From contig JAAOMT010000607.1 of assembly GCA_016748015.1 (NCBI GenBank), positions 30,999 through 94,998 of the forward strand: a stretch of DNA of 64,000 nt, read 5' to 3'. This document shows, piece after piece, positions 2,065 through 59,718 of the stretch (position 1 is the first letter of the stretch; every line of letters begins with the position of its first letter). The notes under the pieces are model-generated. The model saw only the letters and a list, made by a program, of their open reading frames with translations, did not search any database and was not told the origin of the DNA. Both the position numbers and the translations under genes were made by a program. Source of the stretch: Geosiphon pyriformis (Eukaryota; Glomeromycota; Glomeromycetes; Archaeosporales; Geosiphonaceae).

Positions 2065-4950
2065 GATGTTGAAATTTTTACAGTGAGAGGTTTTTATTTG
2101 AAAATAAGTGCTGTCGTGGTTCCCCTGTGTGTGTCTCGATTAAAATCTTTTGGAGTGTTGATTCGATTCTCGAGCTCGAGTTGAAAATGAAAGTTTGTGA
2201 GATATGGAGGAATTAGGTGAAAATAGGCTAGGTAAGATGATTTGGGCTCTTAAAATTAGAAATTTAAACTTGAAATTTTGTAAAAATCAAGTTTTTGCCA
2301 GCAAAAAAATTTTTTAAACTAATAAAAAACTACAGCCAGCTGTGTGGGTATGATGTGGTCGGGTTTGAAAGAAGTAATAGTAATGGTATGATGGGTTTAT
2401 ATGAGTACACCTTCAAAGGTGAGGAGGGAAAGACGTGATTAAATGAATGAGAGGGATTTTTTGGGCTGAGAGCCTTAATAGAGAAGGAAATTAAGGAAGA
2501 GGATAACCACGACAGTGGGCGAAAAGGACGGAAAAATGTTGTGAGTGAAGGAGTGGGTGTTAAAAAGCACATTTAGAATCAATCAATAGCTTATATCTTG
2601 GATTGTTGCACATCGCATTCGATGCATTAGCTGTACAAAAATTAGGCTTAAAAATTTATTATACATTTAATTTGATTTATATTGGGCTAAAATCATGCGT
2701 TTAGTTAAAGGTCTACCACCAATATCAATGTCATTTCAGATAGATTAAATGTTGAACGCCTATCTTTAATTTTCCATGGGTGGACTAACATGCATTTGTC
2801 CAAAAAGGTTTAAACTTTTTGGCGAATCTTTTTTCTTTTTTCGTAATTTGGTCCAACTAACAGTTGTACATGCGAATTGGCAATTTACTTTGTGTTCCAG
2901 TACCTTGATATTTGAATGACATAGTAGATGAGGTGGCAAATTACGTTAATTAAAATGGATAATGTTTATTAATTTTATGAACTCTGCTTTGAAAAGCAAA
3001 AAATTTAAGGTTTGTACCATTTGATCGAGAATATGACTTACAGAGATGTTTTAATTATCAGACTTATTACCTAAAGACCCGAGTGTTAGTGTTACCTTTT
3101 AAATTTGATGAGTTTGATCACAATCAACTTCGGCGAATAATTAATAGAAAGTTAATTTCAGGGAAAATCAAAAATTTCTATCAATCAGATTTTTTATACT
3201 ATGAGGGGAGATTCTCCTTTTTAAAAGGGTCTAATATGTTAATTTTATCAGCCTCCAAACATTCTCAATCAGATTTCATTCGACATTAATGGCCATGGGA
3301 GAACATTCACATCATTTTTAAGATTTTCCTGAAAGCAAATCAATACAAAGTAGAAAAACAGCCACACACACACATTTGATCTGAATATTTTTCATATCAA
3401 TTTTTTTTTAGCAAGCTTTAAAATCTTGTTATTTTCTCTTTTAGTTATGATTTAAATCTTGGTTGATTATTATTTAAAAGTTTTTTTTTCTCTTCATCAT
3501 TGAATCTAATAAAGTATTGTGAGTTTTATTACAATAAACATAATTTGCTGTAGCTAAAAGTTCTAGCTTTGAACCTCTGTAATTTGTATGTAAGAAAACA
3601 GTTTCCTATTACTTTTTAGTTGAAAGAAACATACTTAATATAAAGAACTTATTAATCTATAAAAAGCATACAATATCAAATTTTATTTCATTTTTTACCT
3701 TTATAAAAAGTTAAGATGTTTAATATAATCTATGAAAAAAATTATTTGGATCTGATACTTTTTTGGGTAACTGTATGAGAATTTAAGGGTGACAAACAAA
3801 ATTCCAAGTTTCAGATAACGCTTGGGAGCATATTTTAAAGATTTGGTTTTGGGCAGGGAAACTTACGAATGATTCAAATTTTTGACAATTGATTTATTGA
3901 AATTAAAATTTTCAAAGAAAAAATTTCAATATCTTGTTGGAAAAACATGAAGCTCAATTCACTTAATGATTATATTGTAAGATATTATGAAATTTTATTT
4001 TTTGGTTGTTGGGTTAAAGTTCAAATTTTTCGGTAAGCTACACAGCATAAATAGTCAAACTTGAGCTTTTATTAAAATTCAATAAGTGGGAAATTTGATT
4101 TGCATTTAATTTTTGATACATGTACATCAAAAATTTGAACCTGCTTTTCAGCTAATTTCTGAGGAAAAAAGTGAAGCATAAGAATGGTTAATTAAAATGA
4201 AGGAGTAAATTTCTGTTTGAATGAAATGAATATAAAGCAGCAACATGTGGAAATAAAATAAAAAATTGGTTATGATTGGGTTATATCATAAGTTTTCATA
4301 TTAACTAAAAAAATTTTTGCAACGATGAAATATTAATTTGAAATTAAAGTTGGGAAGCTTCGAATTAGAATATTTATATTTGACGTTAGTATTGACCAAT
4401 GAGAAAAATTTTGCATGACCCCAGTTTTTCTGAGACTTACTTAAGCTTATATCATAATCAAGAGTCGTAGGTTTAGTCGTCATACGAAACGAAAAATATT
4501 TCCTTTAACAATAAATCGAGATTTTTCCAAAAAGAATTGATTTCTTTGGATTTCAGATTAAAAAAGTATGACAGTTTTCTCTCGGACTTGGCCTTTGGTT
4601 ACAAAATATTTTTATGTACAAAATAAAATATAGGGTTTTTTGATAGTTGATTGGTTTTATATTTATTTATATTACTTTCATAATTTAGTAAGAATATATT
4701 CTTTGATCTGAGTAGCGGTTCAGAAAGATTTGTCTTTGTTTTTGCATGATCAAACAGGAAATTAATTTTTTACAGCTGCTTTAACTTTAGTGAAGCATAT
4801 GATAGTTGAAACTAATGGGTCGTACTTTTCAAAAACTTTTTTGGAGTTTTTATTAATAGCACGTGATAAAAAATTAATTTTACAAATTGATCACAGTGCG
4901 ATTACTTTCGATAATCAATTCGCAACGCCGCAACATTGAATTTACTAAAT
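2065..4950. other. Intergenic, no supported gene
   Basis: AT-rich spacer. Short ORFs (2330-2572 minus, 3083-3289 plus, 4301-4483 minus) have low-complexity or unconvincing composition and no recognisable motif. Confidence 0.45.
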
Positions 4951-13027: not shown

Positions 13028-14021
13028 CATAATAATAATAGTAATAATAATGATAATCATTAATATTATTTAATATTATTAATATTTAAATCAATAATAA
13101 AGCAAATCATTCGAAATTAATAATACATATGCTTAGAGTTTTATTTTATTGTTTCCCGAACGGACAAGTCAAAATATCCCCACCCGATAAAAGCAAAACC
13201 CATTCAATAATGATGACGGTAAACAGGAATGACGGTAAAACCGAAATATTTTCGGTTTAAAATTTAAAATTTTTTATCCCAAAGAGTCAAAAACCATGAA
13301 CCAATCAAATATCGTCATTTCGTATAGAAGCTCATCACAGAAATGAACAAACCTATACCATCTGGTTTTACTTAAATTTCCTATTCATAGCTATAACCCA
13401 TATTTAGTATTCATTATTTTTGATAAATTCAATCCACTTTTCTTTTTTTCTTTTTTTTTTTAAGAAAAAATCAGACTCTTGTCCTTTCATTTTTGTTTAG
13501 ACACTTTTAATCACCAAAGATTACCTTAATACGTACAATAAACATTACCTTTCCCGAAATAAGGTAGTCGCACTTGATTAACCTTAACCCTTTTGAAGTA
13601 TTTTAATTTTTTTCGAAAAAACAATTAGGTTTCTTAGCTCCTTTGTGTTTTCTTTTTCTAGTTTAAAACTTTTTATTTTAATTTGGAAAATCAAAATCTA
13701 TCACGAATATATACTAGAACAATTACATCAATTCATTGGTTTCAATATAAATAGTCTTAGTGGGTAATTTTTGAAAGAAACAGTAATAACCTTTCCTCGC
13801 TGTAAAAAACTTTAAATTTCAAATTTAAAGAATTAATCAATTAATTTCATTCTTGCTTTAAAATACATGATATATTCGGTTTCCTGTTGGTCAAAATTTA
13901 AATTCAATTAATCTATCACCGCTTGTTTCTACATTCAATTAAATAAAATATTTTCTCTACATTATCCCCAAACATCTATTTAAACCCCCTCTCCCCATCA
14001 TTCAATTTCATTTCAAAATCC
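10017..14021. other. Intergenic, 4 kb, no supported gene
   Basis: AT-rich with many homopolymer runs. It contains a short GCAT-repeat (around 12105-12120), a (TAA)n tract near 13000 and a small perfect hairpin at 13238-13258. No ORF with convincing composition was found. Confidence 0.45.
12991..13062. repeat. Imperfect (TAA)n microsatellite
   Basis: TAA/ATA units interrupted by TCA, TAG and TGA variants, running into an AT-rich palindromic stretch (TTAATATTATTTAATATTATTAA). Confidence 0.85.
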
Positions 14022-15806
14022 ATGGCCGAGGTGTCAATAACAGTTATCTTATCATTTCTTTTGACCGCTTTCACTTATATATCGTTCGCCTATATCTTTG
14101 TTCACTTTCTACTTCTAAACGACGATAAAAAAAAATCTAATCGTCATAATCAAGGAAAACATCGCAAACAATCATCATTCTCAACAATGAAAGCTTCAAT
14201 TGTTAAACAATCGACTAGAACCAACACAACTACCACCACAACAATGAAGAAACCAATCACAAATGTAAATACAAGCCCTTTAACCCTATCGTTTGTCCTA
14301 CCCAAAGGTATAAAGCCTTTACCTGGGCCAACTTCATTACCAGTCATTGGTAATCTCCATCAGCTATCTGATCCTTTGCACATGACCTTGAATGATTGGG
14401 CTCAAATTTATGGTCCTATATTTCAAATTCGTATGGGATCAAAAGTTTGGGTCATCTTAAATGATCATCAAATTGCCAATAAACTTTTCCTCGAGAAAAG
14501 TGATATTTATCAACCATCATCTTCAAATTTATTAATCTCATCCACCCCTTTATCTCTGACCGCAAGGTCGCTTGCTCAACAAGCTTTATCACAAAAAACG
14601 GTCGAAACAAATTATACTCCTATTGTCCATAAACAAACTAAATCCTTAATGAGACATTTCTATAAATACTCGAACCAAACCATTGACCCTAGCGAAGCAC
14701 TTGGAGAATTTGTCTCGAAAACCTTTTCCACTTTAACCTTTGGAAGTGTGGCAGAAAAATTTTCTGATGATTTTAGTCAAGTATTAGAATTAACCAAATC
14801 TTTAGAATCAAAAAATGCTCGATTAGAAGCTTTACCATTTCTTCGTTCTTTCACCTCATCACCGAAACTTGAATCAGAAGCTCGTGAAAGTGTACTAAAG
14901 TTTCAAGAAGTTTCCATGAATTTGGCAGCCACGTTGAAAAATCGTAACGCTAAAAAAAGCCCTGCCATTGATAAATCTTTCGTTTCACAAATTTTACGAT
15001 CTATGAAATCGAAAAATTCAATCGATGACCATGAATTAATGAATTTGAATACAAACTTTTTGTTCAATGGTACCGATTATACGATCAAAGAAATTAAATG
15101 GGTCTTCCTGCTGTTGTCATATGCACCACAAGTTCAAAAACGAATTCAGCAAGAATTACTCAAAGTAGTTGGAAAAGGAAAATTACCTGAGGCTAACGAT
15201 TATGCTAATCTGCCTTATTTGCGAGCCACCATAAAGGAAATCATGCGTTTCAGGTAAAAATCGTAATGATTTTTCCTGTTTTATTTTAAATAGTTTTGAA
15301 ATTCATTTTTTTGAAATCTCACTTTTTGAATTTTTTTTTTTTATAGACCCGTTGGTTTCTTCTCAAAAACATACACAGCAACAAAAGATGACATCTACGG
15401 AAATTTACACATCCCACTCAACTCAACTGTAATCTTAAACACAAACTTTCTTCACTTTAGTCCGTCAGTTTTCGAACGTCCAAAACGATTTTCACCTGAA
15501 AGATTCTTGGACTCTAATGGAAACTTAAAAGAAATCGATTCAACTCTGGACACTTGGTTGTTCGGTAAAGGACCAAACGAAAATTTGACTCAACACCTAA
15601 CCGAAATCCTTTTATCATGTGTTACCACCTTCACCTTATCACTATTCAACATACAAGCTGAGATTGATCAGAAAACTGGGGAAGAGGTTGATATTAATTT
15701 GGAAGGCATTTCACGTGGTTTGGAATTGGATGCACCAGAATTCAAGATTATATTGGAACCGCGGGAAGATGTGCTTGATACTGTGGCCATTATTGGACGA
15801 TATTAA
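14022..15806 (+). CDS. Cytochrome P450-like protein lacking the heme-ligating cysteine
   Basis: Two exons (14022-15253 and 15347-15806) give 563 residues; the intron splits an Arg codon and the frame stays open. Residues 8-32 form a membrane anchor. A Ser/Thr/Lys-rich linker follows, then the hinge KPLPGPTSLPVIGNL near 98-112. P450 landmarks are in order: I-helix FNGTDYT (349-354, where AGxDT is usual), K-helix ExxR as EIMR (406-409) and PERF (461-464). The heme loop, normally FxxGxRxCxG, reads FGKGPNENLT (483-492). Asn490 occupies the Cys position, Asn488 the Arg and Thr492 the Gly, while the flanking Leu and Glu are kept. A protein like this is not expected to form a normal thiolate-ligated P450. 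It may be a pseudoenzyme, bind heme differently, or be recently inactivated. The reading frame is otherwise intact. The anchor would place it on the ER membrane. Confidence 0.85.
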
Positions 15807-20155: not shown

Positions 20156-20529
20156 TTGGCAAAGCAATGTTTAAAGATGACATTGTAAATGGGTAAAGTG
20201 ATGTTTTGATGAAAAAGTGGGAAAAGATGGGTACAACAATTGATTGGTGCTTTTATTTATACTACTGGTTAGCGTCAGCATGATTTGTACCAAAGCTCTC
20301 AGCCGGATCATGTGCAACCCATTTATTTTGAAATCAACCAATAAACAAACTGATTGATGCCTTCAAAGCTTTTGTACTAACCAGTTACGCCACATTAACA
20401 GTGTTGTCTAGGCTTATTGATGAGAATATGTGATTTGTCTTTTATGCCGATTAGGAACCTTCAAACTCGCTAGAATTCTAAACCAGTTAGAAACTGTATT
20501 AATCATGGATTCTCTGGATTGATTTACTC
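20156..20529. other. Intergenic, 5' flank of the hypothetical gene
   Basis: Slightly less AT-rich sequence upstream of the spliced minus-strand gene. No distinct promoter element or ORF was recognised. Confidence 0.35.
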
Positions 20530-20811
20530 ATCCAAAATATACGTTGAGTTTCTAAAGTTTCAATCCATACTTCTGGCTTCAGTTTCCATCAAAAAGCTTT
20601 TAAAGAGCTGTTTTGAAAAATTCTAAATCGTATCCAATATTCAATTCATTGGCATATGATTTAATATGAACCTTAATTTCAATAATATGAAATTTTTGTA
20701 ATGCTTTAAAAGGTTTAAAGATTCCATCTGTTTGAAACATGTTTTTGGTTGGAAAATGCTATGGTTGTTATTAAAATTGAGCCTCAAAGGTGAAGTTGAT
20801 TTAATATAGTA
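20530..20811 (-). pseudogene. F-box/LRR gene relic
   Basis: Several blocks match the intact F-box/LRR gene at 41974-43494 at the nucleotide level and in the same order. TTCTGGCTTCAGTTTCCATC followed by AAAAAGCTTT corresponds to the intact gene near 42147-42173. The stretch with GATTTAATATGAA corresponds to about 42291-42304, and GCTATGGTTGTTATTAAAATT to about 42429-42450. Intervening LRR sequence is missing and frames are broken. The homology stops within about 20 bp of the 3' end of the Fanzor relic, so that element may have landed in or beside this copy. Confidence 0.75.
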
Positions 20812-20821
20812 AACTACCAAA

Positions 20822-22065
20822 CATCCGGATGGATTGTAATATATACATAATAGATAATGCTAAACATTGCCCGGAGAAAAATACCCGTGAACGCCATTTT
20901 CATCACTATCTATTACAGTCTAACAATTTCGGCATTTATATATCTCAGATTCTCCGGTGTTTTAGGTGTTTCCGCACCAACTGCAATCTTGGGCATATAA
21001 GCTTCATTTTGGATAATAACATAAACCCCTAATTCCTCTGCTTTGGCTATTAAACATTTCTCAAAATCAAGAATGTGCCCAGCCAAGCATCTTTTTAAAT
21101 GTTTTTTTTTGTAATTTTTCATGTTTTTCGGTTCTTCATATTTGATATCTCAAGAGGAGTAATAATAATGACATCAAATTCATGAGTCCAAAAAGCAATA
21201 ATTTTTTTGTGAATTTCATTTTAGAAGTGTTTAATTTTTTGTTGAATGCATGTTATTGCTTTATCAAGCCCTTTAGCCTACTTCTTTTTGCATTTAAAAG
21301 TTGATGTATCAACTTCTTTTTTTGTGATATTAAATTGTTCATATAGATGCAAATATGAGCAATATTTTCAATATTTTATTGACTAATTTTATCTATTCCT
21401 TTAGTAGGAGAATATCATGTAATGGGTGTACAAATGCCAAGTAATAAAACTGCATAAATAAAGCTATTTGCTTGGGTTTTGCAGACTTGTTTTTGTATCT
21501 CATAAAAATCAGGCAAACTTCTATTTATTAGTTTTTTGAAACTAGATAAGTTTGCTATCAGATATTATTTTGTATATAAAGGACCACTTGCACTTTGTTT
21601 CAAAATGGAAAGAACATAATGAACATTCATTATTATTTAAACTGGAAATAGGCTTGTATTGATAAAGTATAAAGATAATGTATTAGTACATTTTTTATAA
21701 TTGTGTACTATATTGAATAACTTCATTTCATGCGGCCAATCTTTGATTAATTCTTCATTTGTAATATTGAGATAAATAATTTCATAAAAGCATGTCCAAC
21801 CAAACAACAGCTTTACAAGACATTTGTTCACTCCAAATAGCTGAATTATCATAGAAAAGAAGTTGTTTTTTTCTAAAAGTTATAAGCTTTAACCAACTTC
21901 TTTCAATAATACCATTTTGATTTCTTCTAATCTAATCTATTCCACTACTGTATTAAAAACAAATCTGACCAATCTTATCCATTGCTTTAAGAGTTGTTTT
22001 TGATAATGGTTTGGATGTATCTTAATTATTAATGTTCATTGAGAATTTTTTCTGTTTTTTGGCAC
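20822..22065 (-). pseudogene. Fanzor/TnpB-type RNA-guided nuclease relic, copy 1
   Basis: Fanzor proteins are eukaryotic relatives of the transposon nuclease TnpB, with a split RuvC core and a C-terminal zinc ribbon. On the minus strand, in order, are: a RuvC-I-like block ending LGICTPIT (about 21410-21440), where the expected Asp reads as Leu; a basic linker with KRSRLKGLIK; a RuvC-II-like block NEIHKKIIAFWTHEFDVII then TPLEISNM, with the candidate catalytic Glu; KRCLAGHILDFEKCLIAKAE; VIIQNEAY; CSWCG; YKCRNC; and DSDENGVHG, the RuvC-III block. The reading frame shifts and holds stops (for example in CRNC followed by a stop), so it is not expressed as a full protein. The 5' edge is placed where L1's promoter homology begins. 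Copy 2 lies inverted at about 25990-26635. Confidence 0.82.
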
Positions 22066-22543
22066 TTATTAAATAAGTTTCATTGCTAAGTATTTTTTGC
22101 TTCGAAATACTTATACTTATTCACTGAAACTTAAGCTGGTAAAATTGTAACCGACGAAGAATGTGTAATGCTTCAATAATATTTATCATGCTTCGAGATA
22201 TTTATTTGTCTCGTTAGGTAAAAATAAAAAGTGATCAATGAAAGTAAATCTGATACCTGAAAGTTTTTTCATATTTTAAGCATTGGTTTTTTATATGCTT
22301 AAGGTATACTAAATTCCCAAATGTTATTCTGTGCTTATCTTGATTCTCTTTTTGTTTGTCAGAACAAATAACAATCGACGATTCCAAAGATTACATGTAT
22401 ATTCGTTTGGGAAATTTACCATTTGACGAAAATATTTGCTTTTTGATTAATAAACCTAAAACCATATAGGGGAATAGATCATCGAAGCCAGGATACAGTG
22501 ATAAGTTCAATATCTAAGAAGTAATTTTTATTCATGTTTGAAA
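22066..22543 (+). promoter_or_regulatory. Shared upstream region of lipase-like L1
   Basis: Homologous to the 5' flanks of L2 and L3. The shared run starts at GCTTCGAAATACT and includes GTAACCGACGAAGAATGTG, a TTCTGTGCTTATCTT box and a TATA-like CATATAGGGGAATAGAT (about 22463-22479), roughly 65-80 bp before the ATG. Conservation across three copies mainly reflects recent duplication, but the TATA-like element is a reasonable core promoter. Confidence 0.6.
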
Positions 22544-23844
22544 ATGAAAATTCTTTCAAGCTTTTGGTGGTTGCTCATTTTGGGGCTATTTCACATGGTG
22601 ATAGTTTCCATAGCAAAATTTGAAACGAAACGAGAAGAGTATCTTCCAATCAAAGATGTAGATCTCAGCCCCCCCAAAAAGAATTTTATAAACATTACTA
22701 AACAGCAAAAAAGGTCCAAAATTGATGCAAGCTTCCACTTTCAAAAAATTTTAGTAGAGGATCAAGAGCTCCTCGGGATGCTAGCTAATAATGCTTACTA
22801 TGCAAGACAGGCTGCATTTCTTGGAGATGAGAGCGAGCGCCTGTGGGGACGCTTTTTTGGTAAAACCATATATATTTTTTGAAATTAGAAAATGCATCAA
22901 TATTTATATTTGATAATTTTAAATTTTAGTGGGAATGCCAGAAAGTTTAAATCCAACCAAAGGAACGTATCAACAAATAATATTGACTTTCAAATCTAAA
23001 GAAAGGGGATACAATCATTGGCAAAGGATAAAATCAACATCTATTGCATATCCTAGAATACAAGAGGCCTATGTAGAAAAAAGTCATTTTAATATATGGT
23101 TAAAGGGTAGAAAAAATTTTTGGACTAAAATGAGATACATGCAATTAAAACCTTACTTCAATGTTAAAAAGAATTACTTTACATTCACTGGTTTTGGGCG
23201 AGCGGGTAGTAAGTTGTGATTATAATATTAAATATTGTTGCATAATGCCATTTTATATTATTTTCATTTTGAAATTTTTTAGTAATAGCAGTATATGCAG
23301 CATTAGAATTTGCTTCTGAATATGCAGTTAAACCAACAGTTATCACATTCGGCCAGCCACAAATGGGAAATAAGAAATTTGTCGAATTTGTAGCAACTCA
23401 AATTACGCTTTATCGTGTCACGTATCGGGATGATTTTACCCCAAGTGTTCCAAGATTTGGTAAAAACTTTGATGGAAAAGCAATTGGCTATTTTCAATTG
23501 AGTGGCGAATACTGGATTTCATTTCAAGATCAATGTGAATGCTCACCTCTTTTCACAAAAACCTCCGACTTAGAACCATCAGTAAAGTTTCCGTCTGTTT
23601 ATAAATGTTTACAGGTCGGAACATTAAATGAACATCCGGTGAGGAAATTTTGAAATTTAAGAATTTTCCAAAGCTAAATGTTATTTTCAAATTTAATGCA
23701 ATCTGAATTTTTTATATCTGCAAGGATTGTAATAAAAATCGTAATGACCGCAGAAGACAAGACGGTCGAAATGTTAAGACTAATGAGGGTAATGACCATT
23801 TCGGACCTTATTTTGGATACATGATGATTGAATCCTATTATTAA
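22544..23844 (+). CDS. Lipase-like protein L1, class-3 lipase fold without Ser and His
   Basis: Four exons (22544-22859, 22930-23208, 23283-23638, 23725-23844) give 356 residues. Intron phases 1, 1, 0 match the paralogs. Residues 1-27 are a signal peptide (MKMKILSSFWWLLILGLFHM). Class-3 lipases use Ser in GHSxGG, then Asp, then His. Here the nucleophile elbow is TGFGRAG (192-198), with Gly195 at the Ser position. The Asp in YRVTYRDDF is kept (249). The His site before EYW is Gln270. VITFGQPQMGN (218-228) is the usual strand after the elbow. A CEC pair and a DCN near the C-terminus are conserved across paralogs. Hydrolysis by the standard triad is unlikely; lipid or carbohydrate binding is possible. 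The last residues (MMIESYY) lack the terminal Cys found in other members. Confidence 0.85.
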
Positions 23845-25985
23845 TTTTTTGAGATAAGCAAGTTAGTTTAATTAGCTAGATGCCTAGTAGTTTCAATTTT
23901 AATAAAATAAATAAATCTAGTTTAAAGACAGCAGCCTCAATAAAGATCAATTATAATAAATATGATTCACCATTTTTTAAAAATGAATGAAGTTGCTCTG
24001 GTTTTTCCAAATTACAAAATAGTTTTTGAAAAATCTCTGCAGTACTGGATACCATCTATCAAATAATATTTTGTATAACAATTTTCTTTTGAAATTTCTT
24101 TCTGATCAATCTCACTCTTACAACTTTTCAATATCTATTTTATAAATTCAAATCCAAATTTGAAAATCAGAGTGGTACCAAGTAGCAACAAGAAATTTTT
24201 GACTTTTAATTTAATTGGTGTTATAAAAGCAGTTTTCTAAGCTATACATAATATCACAGATATCTGAAATATCACAGGATTTTCCAGATTGTACTGGAAT
24301 ATTTTAGATGTTTTTTAAAATAATTAGTAAGAGATCAGAATATGTGAATTTAAAAATAAGGACTGAATGTATTTCCAATTCTTCAAACAGATCAATACTA
24401 ATTACAAAAATTAACAACCAGATTGGTTTATACTTTTATTTATCTTGTCTTATTTGGTTTTTTGTTCTGTTTTATCATAATAGTTTGATCTGTTTCCACT
24501 CTTTTATAGCTCATTATTTTTGCAGACCAAAATATTTTGCTCAAGTTGTCCAAGCTTTTTACATTGTTTAACAAAAAAAATTGTTTGAAAAAATTTCTTG
24601 CACAGCTTGCTTAAGCTATTTCGCTTTAGTCTATAGCACTTAAATCAAAAATTAGCTTGTTTACAGTAGTTATTTAATGTTTGAGAGTTTGTTAATCAGA
24701 TCTAACTTGTTATACAATTTCATTTTTGTTATTCTCTAATAATGTTAATCAAGTTAGATTTATCAGCACACTCTTTATTAATATTATTCTTACTTGGTTT
24801 GTTTTGTTAATTAAAATATCTGTTCTATTACTTTAGAAGTTTAAAACAATTTTTAATAATACAAATAAAACCTAGTTTTGGCCAACTAATTATATCATCT
24901 TTGTTAAATATTATCTTACTGCAATAAATATTACTAAATTTCATTAAATCAATATATAATATTAATTGAAAAAAGAAATATTATTCAAACTTTGTTGTTA
25001 ATTTTAATAAATGTTACAAGGCTGAATAAAGTTATTAATAATACAATCTGTTATAATAACCAATATTGCGAAAGTCATATTTTTACAAAAATATTATACT
25101 ATTGCATTTAATAGCAGATTAATTAACATTTATATCATATAATAATCTAATATTAATTAATATAATTTACTTTAAGTATTTTATTAAAGCTAGTATTGAA
25201 TTAACAATTTTTAATTATGTTGTAAAAATGCTTATTATATTATTTATTAGTGGTTTATTAAGTTAATTAACAAAATTATTACAGTTTTGTCAAAAATAAC
25301 TTTTTTCTACTTTTAATGTTTAAAATTCTGTTAATATAACAAATTATGTTTTGTATTTTATTTTAGTTAAATTTCAAGTTTTACTTATAGAATACAAAAA
25401 TAATAAATAACAAAATATAAATGAAAACATAAAAACCAAAAAGTGTAAAAAAATAACAACAATCTATAATAAAATTCCAAAAACGAAAATAATTTTTAAT
25501 TATACATTATTAATTAAGATATATTCGAATTATTTTTGAAAATAATTATTAAAATAAGAAATAAAGTTGACCAAATGTGCCTTTAATATAATAGTGAAAT
25601 AAAACAACCAAAAGAAATTAAAAGAGTATTATTGAAGAAATTGGTTAAAGTTTATAACTTTTCAATAAAACAACTTCTTTTTAATGATAATTTTTATTTG
25701 AAATAAGCAAAAATTTTATAAGTCGTTGTTTAAGTTTAGTTTTGCCAATATTATAAATGAAAAAATTGATTAAGCACTGATTGTATAAAAAAAATTTATT
25801 AAAAATAATACATAGTAACAACAAAATGCAAAAATCTATTATTTTTTCTTTTGTTTTTGTAAAGTACCATATCAAATAATTATAATTTGTGCCAAAATTT
25901 TAGCAAAATCTTTTGGAATTACTTCATGTTTTTTATTTTTACATTTTATTAATATACAAATATGTATATTAATATATATTTATTA
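23845..25985. other. AT-rich intergenic between L1 and Fanzor copy 2
   Basis: Extremely AT-rich, with scattered stop codons and no convincing coding sequence. The ORFs at 24308-24571 and 25681-25875 are low-complexity. It may hold further decayed element sequence, none recognised. Confidence 0.4.
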
Positions 25986-25989
25986 TGGC

Positions 25990-26635
25990 TTTTTAAGCAC
26001 AAACAACAAATGACTTTTTTTATACAAGATAATATCTAATAGCATACCTATCTATTCTTGAAAAATCAATGAATGAAAGTTTGTTTAAATTTATAAAATA
26101 CAAAAAAAAGTTTACAAAACCCAAATAAATAGCTTTATTTATGCAGTTCCTATTAATTCTGTTATTTATACACCCTTTATATAGTATTTTTTACTAAAGA
26201 AAAAGGTAAATTGGTAAACAAAAAACAAGAAGACTAAAATACTTGCAAAATGAAATTTACAGAAAGACTATTGCTTTTTTTGCTCATAAATTTAATGCCA
26301 TTATAATTTTTTCTTTTGAGATATAAAATTACAAAAAAAACAGTTAAAAGATGCTTAGCTGACATATTATCAATTTTGACAATGTTTAATAGCCAGAGCA
26401 GAGGGATTAAAAGTTCATGTGATTATCCAAAATGAAGCTTATACATCCAAAACACCGGGGGATCTGAGATATATAAATGCCGAAACTGTAAAATTGTAAT
26501 GGATAGAGATGAAAATAGTGCTCACAGAATTTTTCTCTGGGCATTGCTTTGATTCTCTTGGGAGATCATGCAGAAAATAGTAGCAATGCTTAGCATTATC
26601 TATTATTGATATATTACAATCCACCCGTAATAAGT
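25990..26635 (+). pseudogene. Fanzor/TnpB-type RNA-guided nuclease relic, copy 2
   Basis: The plus strand is homologous to copy 1 but in the opposite orientation. Blocks in order: RuvC-I-like TPFI around 26150-26165; NEIYRKTIAFFAHKFNAII then FSFEI (RuvC-II-like, Glu kept) at about 26249-26320; a KRCLA-type helix; IARAEGLKVHVIIQNEAYTSK across frames; then YKCRNCKIVMDRDENSAH (26472-26525) followed by RIFLWALL and a stop. The RuvC-III Asp and the second CxxC are intact. A deletion of about 25 bp next to TCCAAAACACC removed the first CxxC of the zinc ribbon. Frameshifts make it non-functional. Both copies share a 3' tail (ATGCTTAGCATTATCTATTA), where a guide-RNA-encoding end would be expected in an active element. 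Confidence 0.82.
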
Positions 26636-28190
26636 ATCCTAAGGTCTAAAATTAAATTATAAGTAATTCATTAAAGAAAATAAAAAAACTTTGATAAGCA
26701 AAGATCCAATTAGTAACATCTGGTCAACAAATAATTTTATTAGTAGATTTGTAAACACAAGAATAGGGTACCCAAGTTCTTTTAGAACTTGATAAACCAT
26801 ATATTGGATTCTGATCTGTGAATTTTCGTAGTAGATGATCATTTTAAAATATGTTTAAATGACTGAAAACCATTTTTAGAACAAAATAGGTTACTTGTAA
26901 TAAAATCTGTTTTGTGATATTTAATATTTATAAATAAAATTTGAAGCTAAGGTCAATTTGACTTCTTAATCCTCCTTTAAAGTGGTTTTTTATCTACTTT
27001 GATCTAAAACTAAGCCAAGGTTTTTTTTATTTCTTGAAATTCGCTTTTAGATCCCGAATCTTTTATCTCAATGAATAGAAATAATCTGAATTTTTATATC
27101 TAAACAAATTTCTTATTGGGAATATTTTCCCACTGTTTGAATATATTAATTTTAGTAAGATAGATGACAGTTAAAATCAAGCTAGAAATCCTTTCAAGAA
27201 AATAGATATATATTTTTAGCTAATTCGTTAAAAGCTCACTCTAATGTATAAAGCATAATCTCATGGAAACTATATAAGAGTATTAAATGATTTAAGCTTA
27301 TTTATGCGGCTTCTCTAACAATAGTGATTTAAAAATCAAAACCTTTTCCGAATATGAGGAAAATATTTTATTGAATTATTAGAAATTTTAATATTTAAAA
27401 ATTGAAGTAATTTTACAATGTGGGAAAACAAATGAATTTGGTTTATTTTTGTTTGCCTTTTATAATTTTTTTATCAATGTGAAATGAGATGAGTTTGTTC
27501 ATTTTAAAAGTTTTAACCTAATACAATTTTCAGTGGTCGAATCAAAATTTAATAAATTATAAGCCTGAAAATGTTTTTTGGGCAATTCAAAAAATTTGAC
27601 ATTAAGAAGCAATTAGAATAAAGTTAGAAATAGACATTTTAAGCTTTAGGATGATAGCTGAGAAATCCAAAAAAATAAACTTTTGAATTTTATTTTAATT
27701 TGATAAAAATAGGATGTAAAAATTGGAATAAATATTTAGCTGCTTTATAAAATTTAATAGATTAAAAAAAATCATTCATAACTTTGAAATTGATGTCGAT
27801 CACAGTTTGTAAATTTTTATATTTGATAAAGAAAATACCGTTTTGGGTAAAATCTTACTTTGTAAATATTTTTAGCATGTCGAATCACTTTGAAACTAAC
27901 TTTAACAAAGACCTTGGATGAAAAAGAAAATTAATTGTTTTTAAAAAAATTTCTAAGCCTTTGAATTATATTCAAAATTCACGTATTCTGAAAAAAATCT
28001 GAAAATCTACAACATATTGGGTTTTCCATCTATTAGCTATTTTATAGATTAATCAAAACGATTTAATACACATTTATTGCTATGGCAACAGTTATTACTG
28101 TCTACCATAATGGACATCATTTAGCGAAATCTCTCGTCTGTTTTCCCTTTTTCAGCGCATCCTGAATCAACTCCTGTTAATCCCAAATTT
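26636..28190. other. Intergenic, AT-rich
   Basis: No gene supported. A minus-strand ORF at 26657-26842 (YQVLKELGYPIL) has somewhat protein-like composition and may be part of an unnamed element, but nothing is recognised. Confidence 0.35.
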
Positions 28191-28440: not shown

Positions 28441-28878
28441 ATAAGTGCAGATATTTCAATAATATATTGATTCACTGCTAATATTCTTTGCTTCGAAATA
28501 CTCATATCTATACACTGAAACTAAGTTGGTAAAATTGTAACCGAAGAAGAATGTGTAATAATATTTATCATGATTCGAAAATATTTATTTGGCTCCTTAG
28601 GTAAAAATAAAAGCTGATCACTGAAAGTAAATCTGGCATCTGAAAGTTTAAGCATTGGGTTTTCTAAATGCTTAAGATATACTAAGTTCCCAAATGTTAT
28701 TCTGTGCTTATCTTTGATTCTCTTTTTGTTTGGCAGAACAAATCGATCGTCAACAATTCTAAAGATTACGTGTATTTTCGTTTGGGAAATTTAAAACAAT
28801 ATAGGGGAATAGATCATCGAAGCCAGAATACAGTGATAAGTTCAATATCCAAGAAGTAATTTTTATTCATGTTTTAAA
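28441..28878 (+). promoter_or_regulatory. Shared upstream region of lipase-like L2
   Basis: A close copy of L1's 5' flank from GCTTCGAAATACT (about 28492) to the ATG. It includes the TATA-like CAATATAGGGGAATAGAT at about 28797 and the adjoining TCATCGAAGCCAG block. Confidence 0.6.
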
Positions 28879-30186
28879 ATGAAAATTCTTTCAAGCGTTT
28901 GGTGGTTACTCATTTTGAAGCTATTTCACATGGTGATAGTTTCCATAGCAAAATTTAAAACAAAACGAGAAGCGAACTTTCCCGAATGTCTTTCAATCAA
29001 ACATGTAAACCTCAGCCCCCCAAAAAAGAATTTCTTAAACATTACCGAAGAGCAAAAAAGGTCCAAAATTGATGCAGACTTCCACTTTCAGAAAGTTTTA
29101 GTAGAGGATCAAGGGCTCCTCGGGATGCTAGCTAATAATGCTTACTATGCAAGACAGGCTGCATATCTTGGAGATGAGAGCGAGCGACTATGGGAGCGCT
29201 TTTTTGGTAAAAATCATAAATATTTTTTGAAAATTAGAAAATACATCAATATTTATATTTAATAATTTTAAATTTTAGTGGGAATGCCAGAAAGTTTAAA
29301 TCCAACCGCAGGAGCGTATCAACAAATAATATTGACTTTCAAATCTAAAGAAAGGGTATATGATCATTGGAAAAGGATAAAATCAACCTCGATTGCATAT
29401 CCTAGTATACAAGAGGCCTACATAGAAAAAAATCATTTTGATGTATGGTTAAAGGGTAGAAAAAAATTTTGGACCAAGATGGAAAACCTGAAATTAAAAC
29501 CTGACTTCGATGTTAACAAAGATTACTTTACATTCACTGGTTTTGGGCGAGCGGGTAGTAAGTTGTATTAAAAATATTAAAAATTTTTGCATATGCATAT
29601 TCTAAATTATTTTCATTTTGAAATTTATTAGTAATAGCAGTATACGCAGCATTAGAATTTGCTTCTGAATATGCAGTTAAACCAACAGTTGTCTCATTTG
29701 GCCAGCCACAAATGGGAAATAAGAAATTTGTCGAATTTGTAGCAACTCAAATTACGCTTTATCGTGTCACGTATCGGGATGATTTTACCCCAAGTGTTCC
29801 AAAATATGGTTATACCTCTGATGGAAAAGCAATTGGCTATATTCAATTGAGTGGCGAATACTGGATTCCATTTCAAGATCAATGTGAATGCTCACCTCTT
29901 TTCACAAAAACCTCCGACTTAGAACCATCAGTAAAATTTCCGTCTGTTTATAAATGCTTTGAGGTCGGAACATTAAATGAACATCCGGTGAGGAAATTTA
30001 AGAATTTTTCCTAAGTCAACGTTATTTTTAAAATTTAAAACGATCTGAATTTTTTTTATCTGCAAGGATTGTAATAAAAATCGTAATAAACGTAGAAGAC
30101 AAGACGGTCGATTAATTAGGACTAATGAGGGTAATGACCATTTCGGACCTTATTTTGGATACATGATGATTAGAACATATTATTGA
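28879..30186 (+). CDS. Lipase-like protein L2, triad Ser and His missing
   Basis: Four exons (28879-29206, 29279-29557, 29632-29987, 30067-30186) give 360 residues. It is the closest sister of L1: introns 2 and 3 and long exon stretches are near identical. The signal peptide is MKILSSVWWLLILKLFHM. The elbow is TGFGRAG, with Gly199 where the nucleophilic Ser should be. Asp in YRDDF is kept; Gln precedes LSGEYW where His is expected. A four-residue insert relative to L1 (after TKRE) accounts for the length difference. Like L1 it ends without the terminal Cys (MMIRTYY). All splice junctions use gtaa or gtga donors and keep the frame, so it appears transcribable. Its 5' side carries a fused L4-type 3' flank. 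Confidence 0.85.
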
Positions 30187-35286: not shown

Positions 35287-36602
35287 TTAAATGTTAACTG
35301 GTTCTGAGGGGCATATTCCCATCATGTAACCAAAATAAGGTCCGAAATGGTCATTACCCTCATGAGTCCTAACTAATCGACCGTCTTTTCTTCTGCGTTT
35401 ATTACGATTTTTATTACAATCCTTGCATATATAAAAAAATTCAGATCGCATTAAATTTTAAAAATAACGTTTGACTTTAGAAAATTTTCTCACCGGATGT
35501 TCATTTAATGTTCCAACCTCAAAACATTTATAAACAGACGGAAACTTTATTGGTGGTTCTAAGTCAGAAGTTTTTGTGAAAAGAGGTGAGCATTCACATT
35601 GATCTTGAAATGGAATCCAGTATTCGCCACTCAATTGAAAATAGTCAATTGCTTTTCCTTCAAAGCTATAACCATATTTTGGAACACCTGGGGTATAATC
35701 ATCCCGGTACGTGACACGATAAAGCGTAATTTGAGTTGCTACAAATTCGGCAAATTTCATATTTCCCATTTGTGGCTGGCCAAATGTGACAACTGTTGGT
35801 TTAACTGCATATTTAGAAGCAAATTCTAATGCTGCGCATACTGCTATTACTAAAAATTTTCAAAATCAAAATAATTTAGAATATGCATATGCAAAAATTT
35901 TTAATATTATAAATACAACTTACTACCCGCTCGCCCAAAACCGGTGAATGTAAAGTAATCCTTATTAACATTGAAGTCAGATTTTAATTTCAGGTTTTCC
36001 ATCTTGGTCCAAAATTTTTTTCTACCCTTTAACCATACATTAAAATGACTTTGATCTACTAAAGCTCCTTCTATTCTAGGATAACCAATCAAGGTCGATT
36101 TTTGCATTTTCCAAAGAATGTATCCCCTTTCTTTAGATTTGAAAGTCAATATTATTTGTTGATACGCTCCTGTGATTGGATTTAAACTTTTTGACATCCC
36201 CACTGGAATTTAAAATTAGCAAATATGAATTTTGATGCGTTTTCAACTTTTCAAAAAAATGGTTATTATTTTACCAAAAAAGCGCCCGTATAAGCGATCG
36301 CTCTCATCTTTAAGACATGCAGCTTGCATTGCATAGTAAGCATTATTAGCTAGCATCGCGAGGAGCCCTTGATCCTCTACTAAAACTTTTTGAAAGTGGA
36401 GGTCTACATCAATTTTGGACCTTTTTTGCTCTTCTGTAATGTTTAAGAAATTCCTTTTAGGGGGGCTGAGGTCTACATGTTTGATTGGAAGATATTCAGG
36501 AAAGTTCGCTTCTCGTTTTGTTTTAAATTTTGCTACGGAAACTATCACCATGTGAAATAGCTTCAAAATGAGTAACCACCAAAAGCTTGAAAGAATTTTC
36601 AT
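35287..36602 (-). CDS. Lipase-like protein L3, triad Ser and His missing
   Basis: Four exons on the minus strand (36602-36275, 36202-35924, 35849-35494, 35421-35287) give 365 residues, with the same exon lengths as L2 except the last. Signal peptide MKILSSFWWLLILKLFHM. Elbow TGFGRAG with Gly199 at the Ser position; Asp in YRDDYTP kept; Gln before LSGEYW in place of His. Unlike L1 and L2, it keeps the family C-terminus DHFGPYFGYMMGICPSEP with the terminal Cys, so it better represents the ancestral end. Orientation is opposite to L1, L2 and L4, so this copy has been inverted. Conserved C-x-C (CEC) and DCN cysteines suggest disulfides in an extracellular protein. Confidence 0.85.
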
Positions 36603-37035
36603 TTTAAAACATGAATAAAAATGACTTTCTTAGATATTGAATTTATGGTTTCGAAAATCTATTCCCCTATATAGTTTACGTCTATTAATCAAAATAACAA
36701 ATATTTGGTCAAATCGTAAATTTCCTAAACGTAATATACGTAATCTTTCAATCAAATTTTTGCTGACAAAGAAAAAGTAAATCAAAATAAGCACAGAATA
36801 TTATTTGGGAATATAGTATACCTTTAAGCATTTAAAAAAACCAATGCTTAAAATATGAAAAAACTTTCAGGTGTCAGATTTACTTTAATTGATCAGTTTT
36901 TATTTTTACCTAACACATAAATATTTTCGAAGCATTACACATTCTTCTTCGGTTACAATTTTACGAGCTCAAGTTTCAGTGAATAGATATGAGTATTTCG
37001 AAACAAAGAATGCTTAGCAGTGAAACTAATATAGA
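36603..37035 (-). promoter_or_regulatory. Shared upstream region of lipase-like L3
   Basis: The reverse complement matches the L1 and L2 promoters: CTATATAGGGGAATAGAT (36657-36674), TTCTGTGCTTATTTTGATT, GTAACCGAAGAAGAATGTG and AGTTTCACTGCTAAGCATTC. Homology extends to CAAAGTCGTCTATATT, which also occurs 5' of L2. Confidence 0.6.
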
Positions 37036-39600: not shown

Positions 39601-41168
39601 ATGAAGACGTTTTCAAACTTTATGTGTACACTCATTTTGATTATGGTCCACATGGTAACATTTGTGGTCCTATTTGAAATCAAAAGAGAAGTAAATTTCC
39701 AAAGATGACTTTGAAACAAAAATTTAACAAAACTAAAAACGAATCAAATATAAATTTTAATTGTCCCTACAAGAGTACAATTCGGGAAAACTTTCGTGAA
39801 GGGATAAGCCTCAATGCTGGAAAAAGGGATTTCTTAAATATTACTAAACAGCAAAAAAAGTCAAAGATTGTTGAAAACCCAAACTTGCGAAAGATTTTAG
39901 TGAAAGATCAAGAGCTTCTCGGGATGCTAGCTAATAATGCCTACTATGCAAGACAAGCTGCATGTCTTAACCATGAAAGTGAACGCTTATGGAGATTGTC
40001 TTTTAGTGAGCTCAATAAATAGTTTGGGAAACTTTCTTCTCGTTATACTTTAAATTTTAAATTTTTTAATTTATTTCAGTAGGGATGCCAAAAAGCCTAA
40101 AACCTACTCCAGGATCATATTCGCAAGTAATATTGACTTTCAAATTTAAAGAACGAGTATATAATAATTGGAAAGGGCATCAATCAATCTCGATTCCTTA
40201 TCCTAACGTAAAAGAGTCATTAGTAGATGAATATCATTTTAATATATGGTTATACTGTAAAGAAATATTTCGGGCCAAGATAGAAAACTTGAAATCAAAT
40301 TCTGAATTTCATGTTAATAAGAAGTACTTTACATTCACTGGTTTTGGGAGAGCTGGTAGTAAGTTGTTAATTTTAATATTAAATATTGTTGCATTTTATT
40401 TGCTATGTATCCATTTTTTAAAAAAATATTTTCGATTTTAATCATCATTTTTTATTAATTGCAGTATATGCATATTTTAAATTATTTTCATTTTGAATTT
40501 TTTTTTTAGTAACGGCAGTATATGCAGCATTAGATTTTGCTTCTGAACATGCAGTTAAACCAACAGTTGTCACATTTGGCCAGCCAAAAATGGGAAATAT
40601 GAAATTTGTCGAATTTGTAACAACTCAAATTACGCTTTATCGTGTCACGTATCGAGATGATTTTACTCCAAGTGTTCCAACATATGGTTATGATATTGAT
40701 ACAAAAGCAATTGACTATTCTCAATTGAGTGGCGAATACTGGATTCCATTTCAAGATCAATGTGAATGCGCACCTCTTTTCACAAAAACCTCTAACTTAG
40801 AACCACCAATAAAGTTTCCGTCTGTTTATAAATGTTTTGAGGTTGGAACGTTGAATGTAAATCCGGTACGTGAATTTTAGGATTTAAGAAATTTTCTAAA
40901 GTCAAAAGTATTTGAGCGGTAGTATTAAATTTAATGAAATTTCAATTTTTTTTATATCTGCAAGAATTGTAATGAAGGTCGGACTAAACGCAGAAGAAAA
41001 GAAAATCGAGGAATGAAGAAAAAGGATACTGATGACCATTTCGGACCTTATTTTGGCTATATGATGGGAAAATGCCCCTCTGAATCAGTTGAAAAATCTA
41101 GTGATATGGGAATAGTTACTACTCACCATGTTGAGAGACACTTTTATATGAATACCCCTTTAAACTGA
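39601..41168 (+). pseudogene. Lipase-like L4, frameshift splits off the signal peptide
   Basis: The ATG at 39601 encodes a signal peptide (MKTFSNFMCTLILIMVHM) that runs into TGA at 39706. The rest of the protein continues in the next frame from ATG 39705. Measured from 39601, exon 1 is one base short of the phase seen in L1-L3, consistent with a single-base loss. Downstream exons are intact: to 40005, 40080-40358, 40510-40865, 40965-41168. From 39705 the product would be 379 residues without an export signal. Elbow GFGRAG, Asp in YRDDFTP and Gln in SQLSGEYW place it in the triad-lacking group. Its last exon is longest, with a tail after MMGKCPSES. Either a young pseudogene, an intracellular version, or an assembly error at the indel. 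Confidence 0.8.
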
Positions 41169-41973: not shown

Positions 41974-43494
41974 TTAAATTTTTAAATAATTAAATTTCTT
42001 GAAATTCTTAGCTACTTGCAAAGCGTCTTTTGTTATAAATTTTGCATTTTCAATATTGAGATACTCAACAAAACCATATTCGAATATCACCTCTAAATGT
42101 TCATCTGAAATACATGTCGAATTTCTAAAGTCCAAATTGACAATTCTGGCTTCAGTTTCCATCAAAAAGCTTTGAAGAGCCATTGGGGAAAATTGTAAAT
42201 CTGTGTCCAATCGGAAATGAGTTACGGTCGAAGGTAGACAGTGCCACAATTGAGAAACAAAATTATCGATATCATCTTCGTCACAATTTGATTTAATATG
42301 AAGCGAAAGGGTTTTAAGGTTATTCCAAATTTCAATAACATGAAGTATTTGTGGTATTTGATCAATTGTTAATAATGCCTCAAAAGTTGTAAGGTTCTGA
42401 TTGTTTGAACCGTATTCTTGGAGGAATGCCATGGTTTCTGTTGGAATTAAGCCGCAAAGGTTGAGTTCGTTTAATGCAGAACTGGAATGAAGCATCAGCA
42501 AACTGATAATATTCGGTGAGATAAAAGAATTGTGGAATTCAATTGCTTTCAAATTGTTAAATGATTCAACTGGTAACTGGGGATAGAAATTCGATAAAGG
42601 TACTGAACAGCTTCTGAGAACAACTCTTTCTAAATCTTTATGTACCGAGATGACTTCAACAAATAAATAGTGTTCAGCCAAATCAATCTCGTTCAATTCG
42701 AGATGCATTAAGGTGCTGGAATGAAGCTGAAGAACGTCGAAAAATCCTCGTAAATCTCTCGTCGATTCTCCTTTGTTATATTTTTGGATTTTGATAAATT
42801 TCAAAGATAATTGAGCAGCAATTAGAACAATTAAATGATCGATTCTTTCAAAAACCGCTTTATCTGGTGATGTATTTAAATTTGGATTCAACTCGATATC
42901 GATTTCTGAAATATTTGTACATAGTCGCGAAGCTGAATAAAGAATTTCTCCTGGATATTCACCATTCAATCCTATTCTTCTTAAATTGGCTAAAGATTTC
43001 CTTGCACCAGGCCATTCAAAAAAATTCCAATCCATATCTCCCCAATGATAATCATCCGAATTAATAACGTTAAAATCCAATTCTAAATCTAAAATTTTCC
43101 CATCACCATTAACTATGTTGATGGCGAATGTATGTAAAAGTCGGGGAGAAGTTCGACGATGTGGAACAGGGGAACACCAATCATTTATCGAATCGAATAA
43201 GCGCTGAAGTGAAAAATATTTGATGTAGCTAAGATAGGGAAATGTGGGAGAATTAAAATCTCTTTCTGACTTGATAACGCCATATTTTATTTGTTCCACA
43301 ATTGGGAGACAAGTTATTAGAGTGTTGATTAAGGAGCCTGGAAGAGAAGCGGAAAACGGTTTACTCCATAAAAAAGTAATTCCTTGTCGACACCAATCTT
43401 TATTTACTAATATGCAAGAGTGTAAAGATTTTCTATCCTCTGGTAAAAATTGGAATATCTTTTCGATGCATGAATTTGGAAGTTTAGAAGCCAT
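41974..43494 (-). CDS. F-box / leucine-rich-repeat-like protein
   Basis: A single-exon ORF of 506 residues. The N-terminus MASKLPNSCIEKIFQFLPED then RKSLHSCILVNKDWCRQGI is a typical fungal F-box (residues about 3-45), the part that binds Skp1 in SCF ubiquitin ligases. The rest is built of leucine-rich segments such as STLMHLELNEIDL, DLERVVLRSCSV, LKAIEFHNSFI, ALNELNLCGL, NLKTLSLHI and IVNLDFRNSTCISDEHLEV. These resemble LRRs that bind the target protein. Arbuscular mycorrhizal fungi carry large families with exactly this layout, often single-exon. The target is unknown. The start is the first Met, directly before the F-box. A broken copy of this gene lies at 20530-20811, so the family has moved within this window. 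Confidence 0.88.
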   Translation of the reverse strand: MASKLPNSCIEKIFQFLPEDRKSLHSCILVNKDWCRQGITFLWSKPFSASLPGSLINTLITCLPIVEQIKYGVIKSERDFNSPTFPYLSYIKYFSLQRLFDSINDWCSPVPHRRTSPRLLHTFAINIVNGDGKILDLELDFNVINSDDYHWGDMDWNFFEWPGARKSLANLRRIGLNGEYPGEILYSASRLCTNISEIDIELNPNLNTSPDKAVFERIDHLIVLIAAQLSLKFIKIQKYNKGESTRDLRGFFDVLQLHSSTLMHLELNEIDLAEHYLFVEVISVHKDLERVVLRSCSVPLSNFYPQLPVESFNNLKAIEFHNSFISPNIISLLMLHSSSALNELNLCGLIPTETMAFLQEYGSNNQNLTTFEALLTIDQIPQILHVIEIWNNLKTLSLHIKSNCDEDDIDNFVSQLWHCLPSTVTHFRLDTDLQFSPMALQSFLMETEARIVNLDFRNSTCISDEHLEVIFEYGFVEYLNIENAKFITKDALQVAKNFKKFNYLKI

Positions 43495-44056
43495 CCTTGT
43501 TCAAGCACCGAATTAAATGATCTCCCCCTTTTCCCAGTGAGTTAAGAAAATCTCCAGCCATATCCAAAAAGGAATGGTGAAACCAGAAAACAATGGGGCG
43601 CAGAAATTAATCTAACCTAGAATTTTGATCACCAGTGTAGTGTAACCCTTTAATTACTCTATAAAGTCTGCTCTTTTGTTAGTCAATGTTTCACACTTAA
43701 AAACAAAAGCTTTTCAAAATGACTCGAAAATAATTGTGAGACATTTTTAATTATCCTTAAACTGAATTTTTAGTAATTGAAAGTGGTATAGTGAAATTAT
43801 TTTTAAAAGGCATAAAAATTCATCCATTGAGATTGCACATTGATGAGCAATAAAAATTAAATGTAATATTTTATAAAAATTATAAATATTAAAATATATA
43901 AATAACAACAACAAAGTTATTTATAAAATTTATTAAGAAAAATACTTTAATAATCAAAACTTTATTAATTTATTTATATATAATAAACCTATTATTATGA
44001 ATGAATAATAATAAATTATTTATTTTTAAGAATTTTTTTGTAATCAAATCAAATCG

Positions 44057-54638: not shown

Positions 54639-55727
54639 ATTGACACAGAAACTTTCAAACTCATTACCTTTACTGAATATATTTATAAACCGGCAAAAGT
54701 AGAAATAAAAAACGAGCTCATTTTTGCAACCAATTTTAATTCGACAGATTTGGATTTTGTATTTGTTGATGAGTAATAAATTGCTTTTCAATTAAGACCG
54801 ACACTATTCTAAATATATCATCCCGGTCAGCAGAATTTATGGTTGGGACCTCCGGATAAGTAACTATTAGCAAAAAAGATATTTTAAAAGATATGCATAA
54901 AATTAATATTGGTAATATCGGAAAAATTAATTTAGTCTCGTGATAAGGGAGACAGTCATCAGTTGATTGTTTTTATCATTTTTTTTTTTTTTTTTTTGGT
55001 GTAGGATTAAAAAAAAGTCACTAGGAATATGTGAAACCAAATTATTGTTAAATATTAAATCATCAAGTATACAAAAAATTCTAATATTTATGTTATTATC
55101 AAGATTTTACTTTGAAGATAATCTATGGATGTTTCGCTAATTTGATAAGATAAAATAAGACTTTTAAATTATCTGTTTTTTCAACAAAAAATTTTTTGAA
55201 ATTTGATTTTATTCCTTGGAAAGAAGTTATAGTAATTTTGAATTCCTTTGCTCTAGTTATTTATTGTATACCATTTAAAAAAAGGGAAATCACGAAATTA
55301 ATAAAAAATTATTGAAGCAAAGAAAAAAAATTTTTAATCTCCCTTAGAAAGTTGAGATGACAATAACATGGAAAATTGAAGTGCAAATAGAGAGATTCAA
55401 TTATTTTTCAAAAATTTAATATAGCTATTTGTTTATCAAATAGTATTTACAATACGTTAGAAAATTTCCAAGTTTTCCCAAATAATTATAAGACATTCTT
55501 TGAATTTCTAGCGTAAAAGTTTAAATATCACTTTTGGAATATGAAGCATGAACAATTCATGATTAGTATGTTTGAGTTTATTTTTTGTTAGAATTATTGC
55601 TTTATAAGCATTAAATTTTTTTCCAAAATTTTTTTTCAAGTTTTTTTGGTTCATATTTAATTTTATAACATCTCAAAAGCTTTAAGTTTGAATAATTTTC
55701 TTTTGTTTTTATTTCTCTCTAACTTAC
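54639..55727. other. Intergenic between L6 and L7
   Basis: AT-rich spacer with a T-run at about 54980. No other feature. Confidence 0.4.

Positions 55728-57175: not shown

Positions 57176-59718
<2,543 letters not shown>

Follow-up and report, generated by a model that had tools for sequence, protein, structure and literature searches.

We analysed a 64,000-nucleotide stretch of Geosiphon pyriformis DNA, hereafter the window (positions 30,999 to 94,998 of contig JAAOMT010000607.1, our C328, in the 124.7-Mb assembly GCA_016748015.1), and found that its minus strand carries a decayed TnpB/Fanzor gene, copy 1, at 20827–22071. With a probability of about 0.9, copy 1 is a dead, 5′-truncated remnant of an IS607-type transposon of Glomeromycotina with a Fanzor2-type tnpB. 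A first-pass annotation, made from the letters of the DNA, had proposed a broken Fanzor/TnpB gene at 20822–22065, i.e., within 6 bases of our limits at both ends.

Copy 1 is a decayed tnpB gene

The assignment to TnpB/Fanzor held in homology and profile searches. In tblastn, the metagenome relative P0013 matched the window at 21504–20878 with 126 bits (E 2e-35), whereas the top score of four queries against 30 dinucleotide-shuffled windows was 28.1 bits. PF07282, the C-terminal zinc-ribbon (TNB) domain, was the top Pfam family for copy 1 and scored 44.6 bits with the joined reading and 26.5 bits with a single-frame piece in which stops were written as X (cut-off 26.3). All other zinc families in Pfam stayed below their own cut-offs for copy 1, the next being C1_1 with 17.2 bits (cut-off 26.5); a better match to another zinc-ribbon family, which the annotation had named as evidence against itself, was thus not found. 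Three-frame translation of the minus strand likewise gave the blocks in the predicted order of TnpB and Fanzor (Table 1). We placed the right limit at 20827 because repeat comparison puts the element end there, and we regard the gene as 5′-truncated because repeat homology ends at 22071, where a flank common to lipase genes begins.

The family blocks of copy 1 are spread over three frames, no stop-to-stop frame of at least 100 amino acids spans them, and the top row of the genome search with copy 1 crosses 9 stops in one frame. The RuvC Asp-Glu-Asp set is incomplete, i.e., the RuvC-I Asp is gone in both copies of the window (in copy 1 it reads as Leu or falls in a gap), the Glu of the NEAY motif is kept in both, and the RuvC-III Asp is kept in copy 1. 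Broken frames and loss of the RuvC-I Asp, both reported earlier, are confirmed: copy 1 makes no working protein and is non-functional. The second copy implied by the numbering is also present, in opposite orientation (Table 1); in this copy, the zinc ribbon's first Cys pair was not found. Both copies are depleted in CpG, with observed-to-expected ratios of 0.36 (copy 1) and 0.40 (copy 2) compared with 0.82 for the window and 0.77 and 1.00 for the siblings L012 and L063, respectively, and TpG plus CpA is elevated (1.28 and 1.19 compared with 1.09 for the window). This suits a putative methylation of the silenced element followed by C-to-T change. Rfam gave no match across 20500–27000 of the window.

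The Fanzor signature is present in relatives of copy 1

According to the main text of PMC10711439, all Fanzors are marked by a DPG motif in RuvC-I together with a Glu located six residues ahead of the zinc finger. In our alignment of 81 relatives (A3), Q276, D287, G289, M389, E433 and R466 were invariant and D467 was conserved in at least 90%, so that the RuvC set is complete at the family level (D287, E433, D467). The relatives also have the Fanzor-clade signature as D287-P288-G289, E433 and C440; P288 is nearly but not fully invariant, with P0018 reading DSG. Only the Glu of this signature is retained in copy 1. The first-pass annotation was right in family and order of blocks. The catalytic Glu of this clade does not lie in the FDVIIITPLE block; it sits in NEAY, directly before the zinc ribbon, at the position of E433.

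The relatives P0001–P0017 all have the RuvC-I Asp. Across the loci examined, this residue was found at 17/29 aligned places, the NEAY Glu at 32/46 and the RuvC-III Asp at 25/40. Because catalytic residues persist at so many aligned places, we conclude that the ancestor was catalytic and that the losses are scattered.

Siblings carry serine-recombinase traces upstream of tnpB

We assign copy 1 to the Fanzor2 type, not to Fanzor1, because its siblings carry serine-recombinase (tnpA) traces upstream, as in an IS607-type element; passages of PMC3627910 and the main text of PMC10711439 locate Fanzor2 in eukaryotic IS607 elements. Our set comprised 49 distinct places with tnpB, chiefly those with the highest scores. 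Searches with tnpA pieces in tblastn found traces at 19 of them, each time upstream of tnpB and on its strand, with tnpA-to-tnpB gaps from −244 to 1,015 bases. One place, L064, had been chosen for its resolvase; without it, the count is 18 of 48. In sibling L063 (contig C397), the sequence immediately before tnpB reads as a serine recombinase and matches Resolvase with 32.0 bits (cut-off 23.3). The search found no tnpA trace in the window itself, at either copy. Pfam resolvase matches in the whole genome number only three, and those on C310 and C397 sit within one identical 1,489-base piece. This piece, at the start of C397 (L063) and the end of C310 (L070), represents either an unmerged assembly overlap or a recent duplication.

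Outside Geosiphon, the Cetraspora proteins P0019 and P0022 begin recombinase-like, with scores under the cut-off (17.0 and 15.8 bits), P0231 combines MerR, Resolvase and PF07282, and tnpA-like and tnpB-like frames overlap in the IMG/VR contig L067. A tnpA upstream of or overlapping tnpB is the IS607 layout. As a side observation, some predicted tnpB proteins have long extensions at the N-terminus that resemble another frame of the overlapping tnpA, as read in L067 at 2296–3918; the same origin is supposed for the extensions of P0107, P0136 and P0025. N-terminal 'LWLPTETD'-like stretches, at first read as a Fanzor1 domain, were ruled out as such, since they are the other frame of the overlapping tnpA in L063 and in the viral contig L067.

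By analogy with the known family, the living ancestor would have had two genes head to tail, tnpA and tnpB. TnpA, the serine recombinase, would have moved the element as double-stranded DNA and without target duplication. TnpB/Fanzor2 was probably loaded with a right-end RNA whose guide extends into the flanking DNA; it may have cut the matching empty site, where repair would have put the element back, i.e., its role would be retention. The copy then decayed via stops, frameshifts and CpG loss. The description as a programmable nuclease may be kept for the family but not for copy 1.

The right end is sharp

Repeat comparison showed that the copies end at ...TATTATTGATATATTACAATCCATCC, followed by unrelated flank. 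The right-end set comprised 34 distinct sequences, each with at most 8 mismatches over 27 bases, two of them spurious by eye. The base after the right end was G in 21/34, A in 7/34, T in 4/34 and C in 2/34; for IS607, a fixed right-flanking base is described in the main text of PMC10711439. Just inside the right end lies a 7-bp stem that overlaps the tnpB stop by reading of better-kept copies. Covariation gave no support for it, with both-side pair changes at 1 compared with 2.2 in shuffles. For this, 25/34 right ends were aligned, leaving out the two spurious ones, a second end of L061 and six with gaps or inserts; of these six, L020 has an undamaged stem. Stem cells were paired in 81.0% compared with 81.7% in shuffles and 23–49% when the stem was slid, and the 81% is flattered because ends broken by gaps or inserts were left out. 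A single right-end sequence folded with a z of −1.65. We hence dropped the stem as a proven RNA. Six loci (L010, L012, L022, L026, L062 and L063) share a GCTTAGTAATGC(C/T)TAT-like motif near the left side, ahead of tnpA; it resembles the right-end GCTTAGTATTGCCTAT, and the two are possibly recombinase-binding repeats.

Open-frame relatives in metagenomes and annotated ones in Cetraspora and Gigaspora

The host belongs to Glomeromycotina (Archaeosporales), so that the contig is eukaryotic. The term mycorrhizal-type genome in the earlier annotation fits this lineage, but Geosiphon is not itself mycorrhizal. PF07282 had 67 matches in the genome. Searching the genome with the copy-1 reading gave at least 149 rows (150 of 293 candidates scored), with several rows at some places, and searching with copy-1 DNA gave at least 71 rows (40 of 86 candidates scored). 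No intact copy was seen among the Geosiphon loci inspected in translation, a subset of the places. Open-frame relatives with 43–58% identity to a sibling were found in metagenomes, and annotated ones in Cetraspora and Gigaspora. These joined the Geosiphon copies of the window family with 98/97 support, as a group of 21 rows, in tree 1, for which the bootstrap had not converged, and with 99/97, as a group of 12 rows, in tree 2, from which P0202 was excluded as it is without the motif used for trimming. The earlier suggestion of possible intact relatives within this lineage stands. The sole named Fanzor2 in tree 1 was mimivirus L79, with an end branch of 3.6.

A second, separate tnpB family occurs in the same genome (L001/L042, L003/L055, L004 and L016; 100/100 in tree 2). 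In this family tnpA frames overlap, by reading, and GT...AG intron-like breaks were seen by eye. It grouped with cyanobacteria at 89/86 in tree 1 and 92/69 in tree 2, and its grouping with the window family was not rejected (approximately unbiased test, p-AU 0.434, tree 2).

The predicted model of a relative had mimivirus Fanzor2 9b0l as its top Foldseek match (E 3.6e-19), which was also the best Protein Data Bank (PDB) match by sequence (P0002, E 3e-24). Fanzor1 SpuFz appeared first at rank 31 (E 5.7e-8) and was not among the 50 matches listed by VIA-align. A first model, built from 18 sequences, was poor (predicted local distance difference test, pLDDT, 47.1) and was not used. No relevant PDB chain was found for an 82-residue piece of L057.

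Alternative readings

Could the relic instead be a Fanzor1 from a eukaryotic DNA transposon that moves by cut and paste and has terminal inverted repeats? We consider this improbable. Fanzor1, not Fanzor2, is reported from Mucor, Rhizopus and Phycomyces (passages of PMC3627910), and the right-end 12-mer CGGATGGATTGT occurs 40 times in the genome compared with once for a reversed control, facing inward at both ends of L061 (C210:448284-449289) and found also at the left of L030. Most of the 40 matches seen, however, are right ends of tnpB copies, and in L061 about 75 bases of the right end are repeated inverted, so that this copy may be two right ends joined into a composite. The tnpA traces upstream at 19/49 places speak against a Fanzor1 carrier, siblings not having been searched for other transposases, and Foldseek placed SpuFz far behind Fanzor2. 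An inverted-repeat transposon had been our first reading, from the inverted 12-mer and the N-terminal stretches; it was rejected as the stretches are a tnpA frame.

A recent entry of the family from the cyanobacterial endosymbiont, i.e., the Nostoc that Geosiphon houses, is less probable still. The named prokaryotic relatives found are indeed cyanobacterial (Moorena, 30–35% identity), and cyanobacterial IS607 TnpBs are named as likely Fanzor ancestors in the main text of PMC10711439. Both trees leave such a transfer unsupported, since the window family falls together with proteins from Cetraspora, Gigaspora and metagenomes, and a group of 13 rows from cyanobacteria, virus and metagenome leaves out both Geosiphon families (100/97). 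A scan of genome contigs with A1 (two short patterns, close relatives only) gave one relative, from Alicyclobacillus, at 27% identity. Domestication of the copies as a guide protein that is nuclease-dead and lacks the RuvC Asp has next to no probability. Loss of this Asp in both window copies with the NEAY Glu kept would suit it, but the gene is interrupted by stops and frame changes throughout, the Asp persists in P0001–P0017 and at the places counted above, and its losses are of different kinds and scattered; we hence rejected it.

Comparison with known systems and implications

Mimivirus Fanzor2 L79 (PDB 9b0l) shares with the relatives the DPG of RuvC-I and the Glu just before the zinc ribbon but is distant, with 22% identity over 381 aligned residues. 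The IS607-like elements with Fanzor2 listed in passages of PMC3627910 resemble the siblings in their upstream serine-recombinase gene; they differ from copy 1, which is broken and has lost Asp and tnpA, sits in a glomeromycotan host and is one of very many decayed copies. Cyanobacterial IS607 TnpBs ('pro-Fanzor' in the main text of PMC10711439) are alike in DPG, shifted Glu and IS607 association, but are prokaryotic, form a separate clade (100/97) and have about 30–37% identity to P0002 (A3). Fanzor1 (SpuFz, PDB 8gkh) is of the same superfamily with, according to the literature, DPG and shifted Glu, but is carried by non-IS607 eukaryotic transposons, and its fold is farther (rank 31 and lower). 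In IS200/IS605 TnpB (ISDra2, PDB 8h1j), by contrast, the canonical RuvC-II Glu precedes the zinc finger by about 50 residues and the motif is D-hydrophobic-G (main text of PMC10711439); its Y1 transposase is unrelated (literature).

Copy 1 is hence a dead member of a known family, in a lineage unnamed in the main texts searched: 'Glomeromycot' is absent from those of PMC10711439 and PMC10432273, with a listing in supplementary tables possible. Apart from one review listed for Fanzor together with mycorrhiza or Rhizophagus (PMC12451028), our literature search gave nothing on Fanzor in Glomeromycota or IS607 in arbuscular mycorrhizal fungi. In the part of Table 1 of PMC3627910 that we consulted, the Fanzor2s from fungi comprise four yeast entries with a single family each.

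We tentatively suggest that an IS607/Fanzor2 lineage might still be alive in Glomeromycotina. It would be an autonomous transposon with a serine recombinase and an RNA-guided nuclease, intact in glomeromycotans from soil and perhaps also in Gigasporaceae. A burst in Geosiphon might have left the many remnants, and the second, separate IS607 family there may represent an independent entry. Many IS607 remnants, two separate IS607 families, relatives with unbroken frames and a common right end would make such a fungal lineage well suited to defining guide boundaries and target motifs, and to dating the burst of a transposon of bacterial type in a eukaryote. The two copies in the window are dead, and no direct use can be made of them.

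Features of the two copies and neighbouring genes

Table 1. Positions of the two decayed tnpB copies and their parts in the window.
Feature	Position	Strand	Basis
Copy 1: 5′-truncated decayed tnpB (Fanzor2-type), IS607-type element	20827..22071	-	tblastn, PF07282, repeat comparison
N-terminal block LIIKIHPNHYQKQLLKQWIRLVRFVFNTVV, counterpart of the HTH_OrfB_IS605 part of P0002	21943..22032	-	53% identity to P0002 29-58, E 2.6e-7
RuvC-I region LLLGICTPIT*YSPTKG; catalytic Asp of SIDPG is Leu or gap; one stop after	21397..21504 (with upstream part)	-	translation, alignment
FDVIIITPLEISNM / IAFWTHEFDVIIITPLEISNM block, counterpart of P0013 FFTHEFDAIIIPPFEASNM (other frame)	21122..21199	-	translation, alignment
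QNEAYMPKI block (third frame); shifted catalytic Glu at 21003-21005 kept	20985..21068	-	translation; E433 invariance
C4 zinc ribbon CSWCGNT*NTGESEIYKCRNC, one internal stop	20923..20985	-	translation, Pfam
RuvC-III block DSDENG (relatives: DRDENG), Asp kept	20893..20910	-	translation, relatives
Right end of the element; GCAATGTTTAGCATTAT resembles a stem, CAATCCATCC is terminal; candidate for the 3′ part of a guide-RNA scaffold	20827..20870	-	repeat comparison
Copy 2: decayed tnpB, oriented opposite to copy 1; Asn in place of the RuvC-I Asp; NEAY Glu kept	~25381..26626	+	repeat comparison, alignment
Copy 2 right end: terminal CAATCCACCC, then G	26583..26626	+	right-end comparison

P0002, the counterpart used for the N-terminal block, scores 27.4 bits to PF12323.

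Lipase-like genes in either orientation also cluster in the window (22505–23653, 28840–30014, 35458–36629, 39678–40880, 44981–46186, 53269–54791, 55894–57181 and 61134–62417). The frame 23273–23650 matched Lipase_3 with 36.7 bits, and the other members were judged by eye; three of the genes have a common 5′ flank down to about 22070. Adjoining the right end of copy 1, a degraded piece at 20528–20805 is 71–79% similar to an F-box-like gene at 41974–43500 (F-box-like score 21.5 bits, below the cut-off of 24.3). A cytochrome P450 gene lies at 13947–15254 (148.9 bits).
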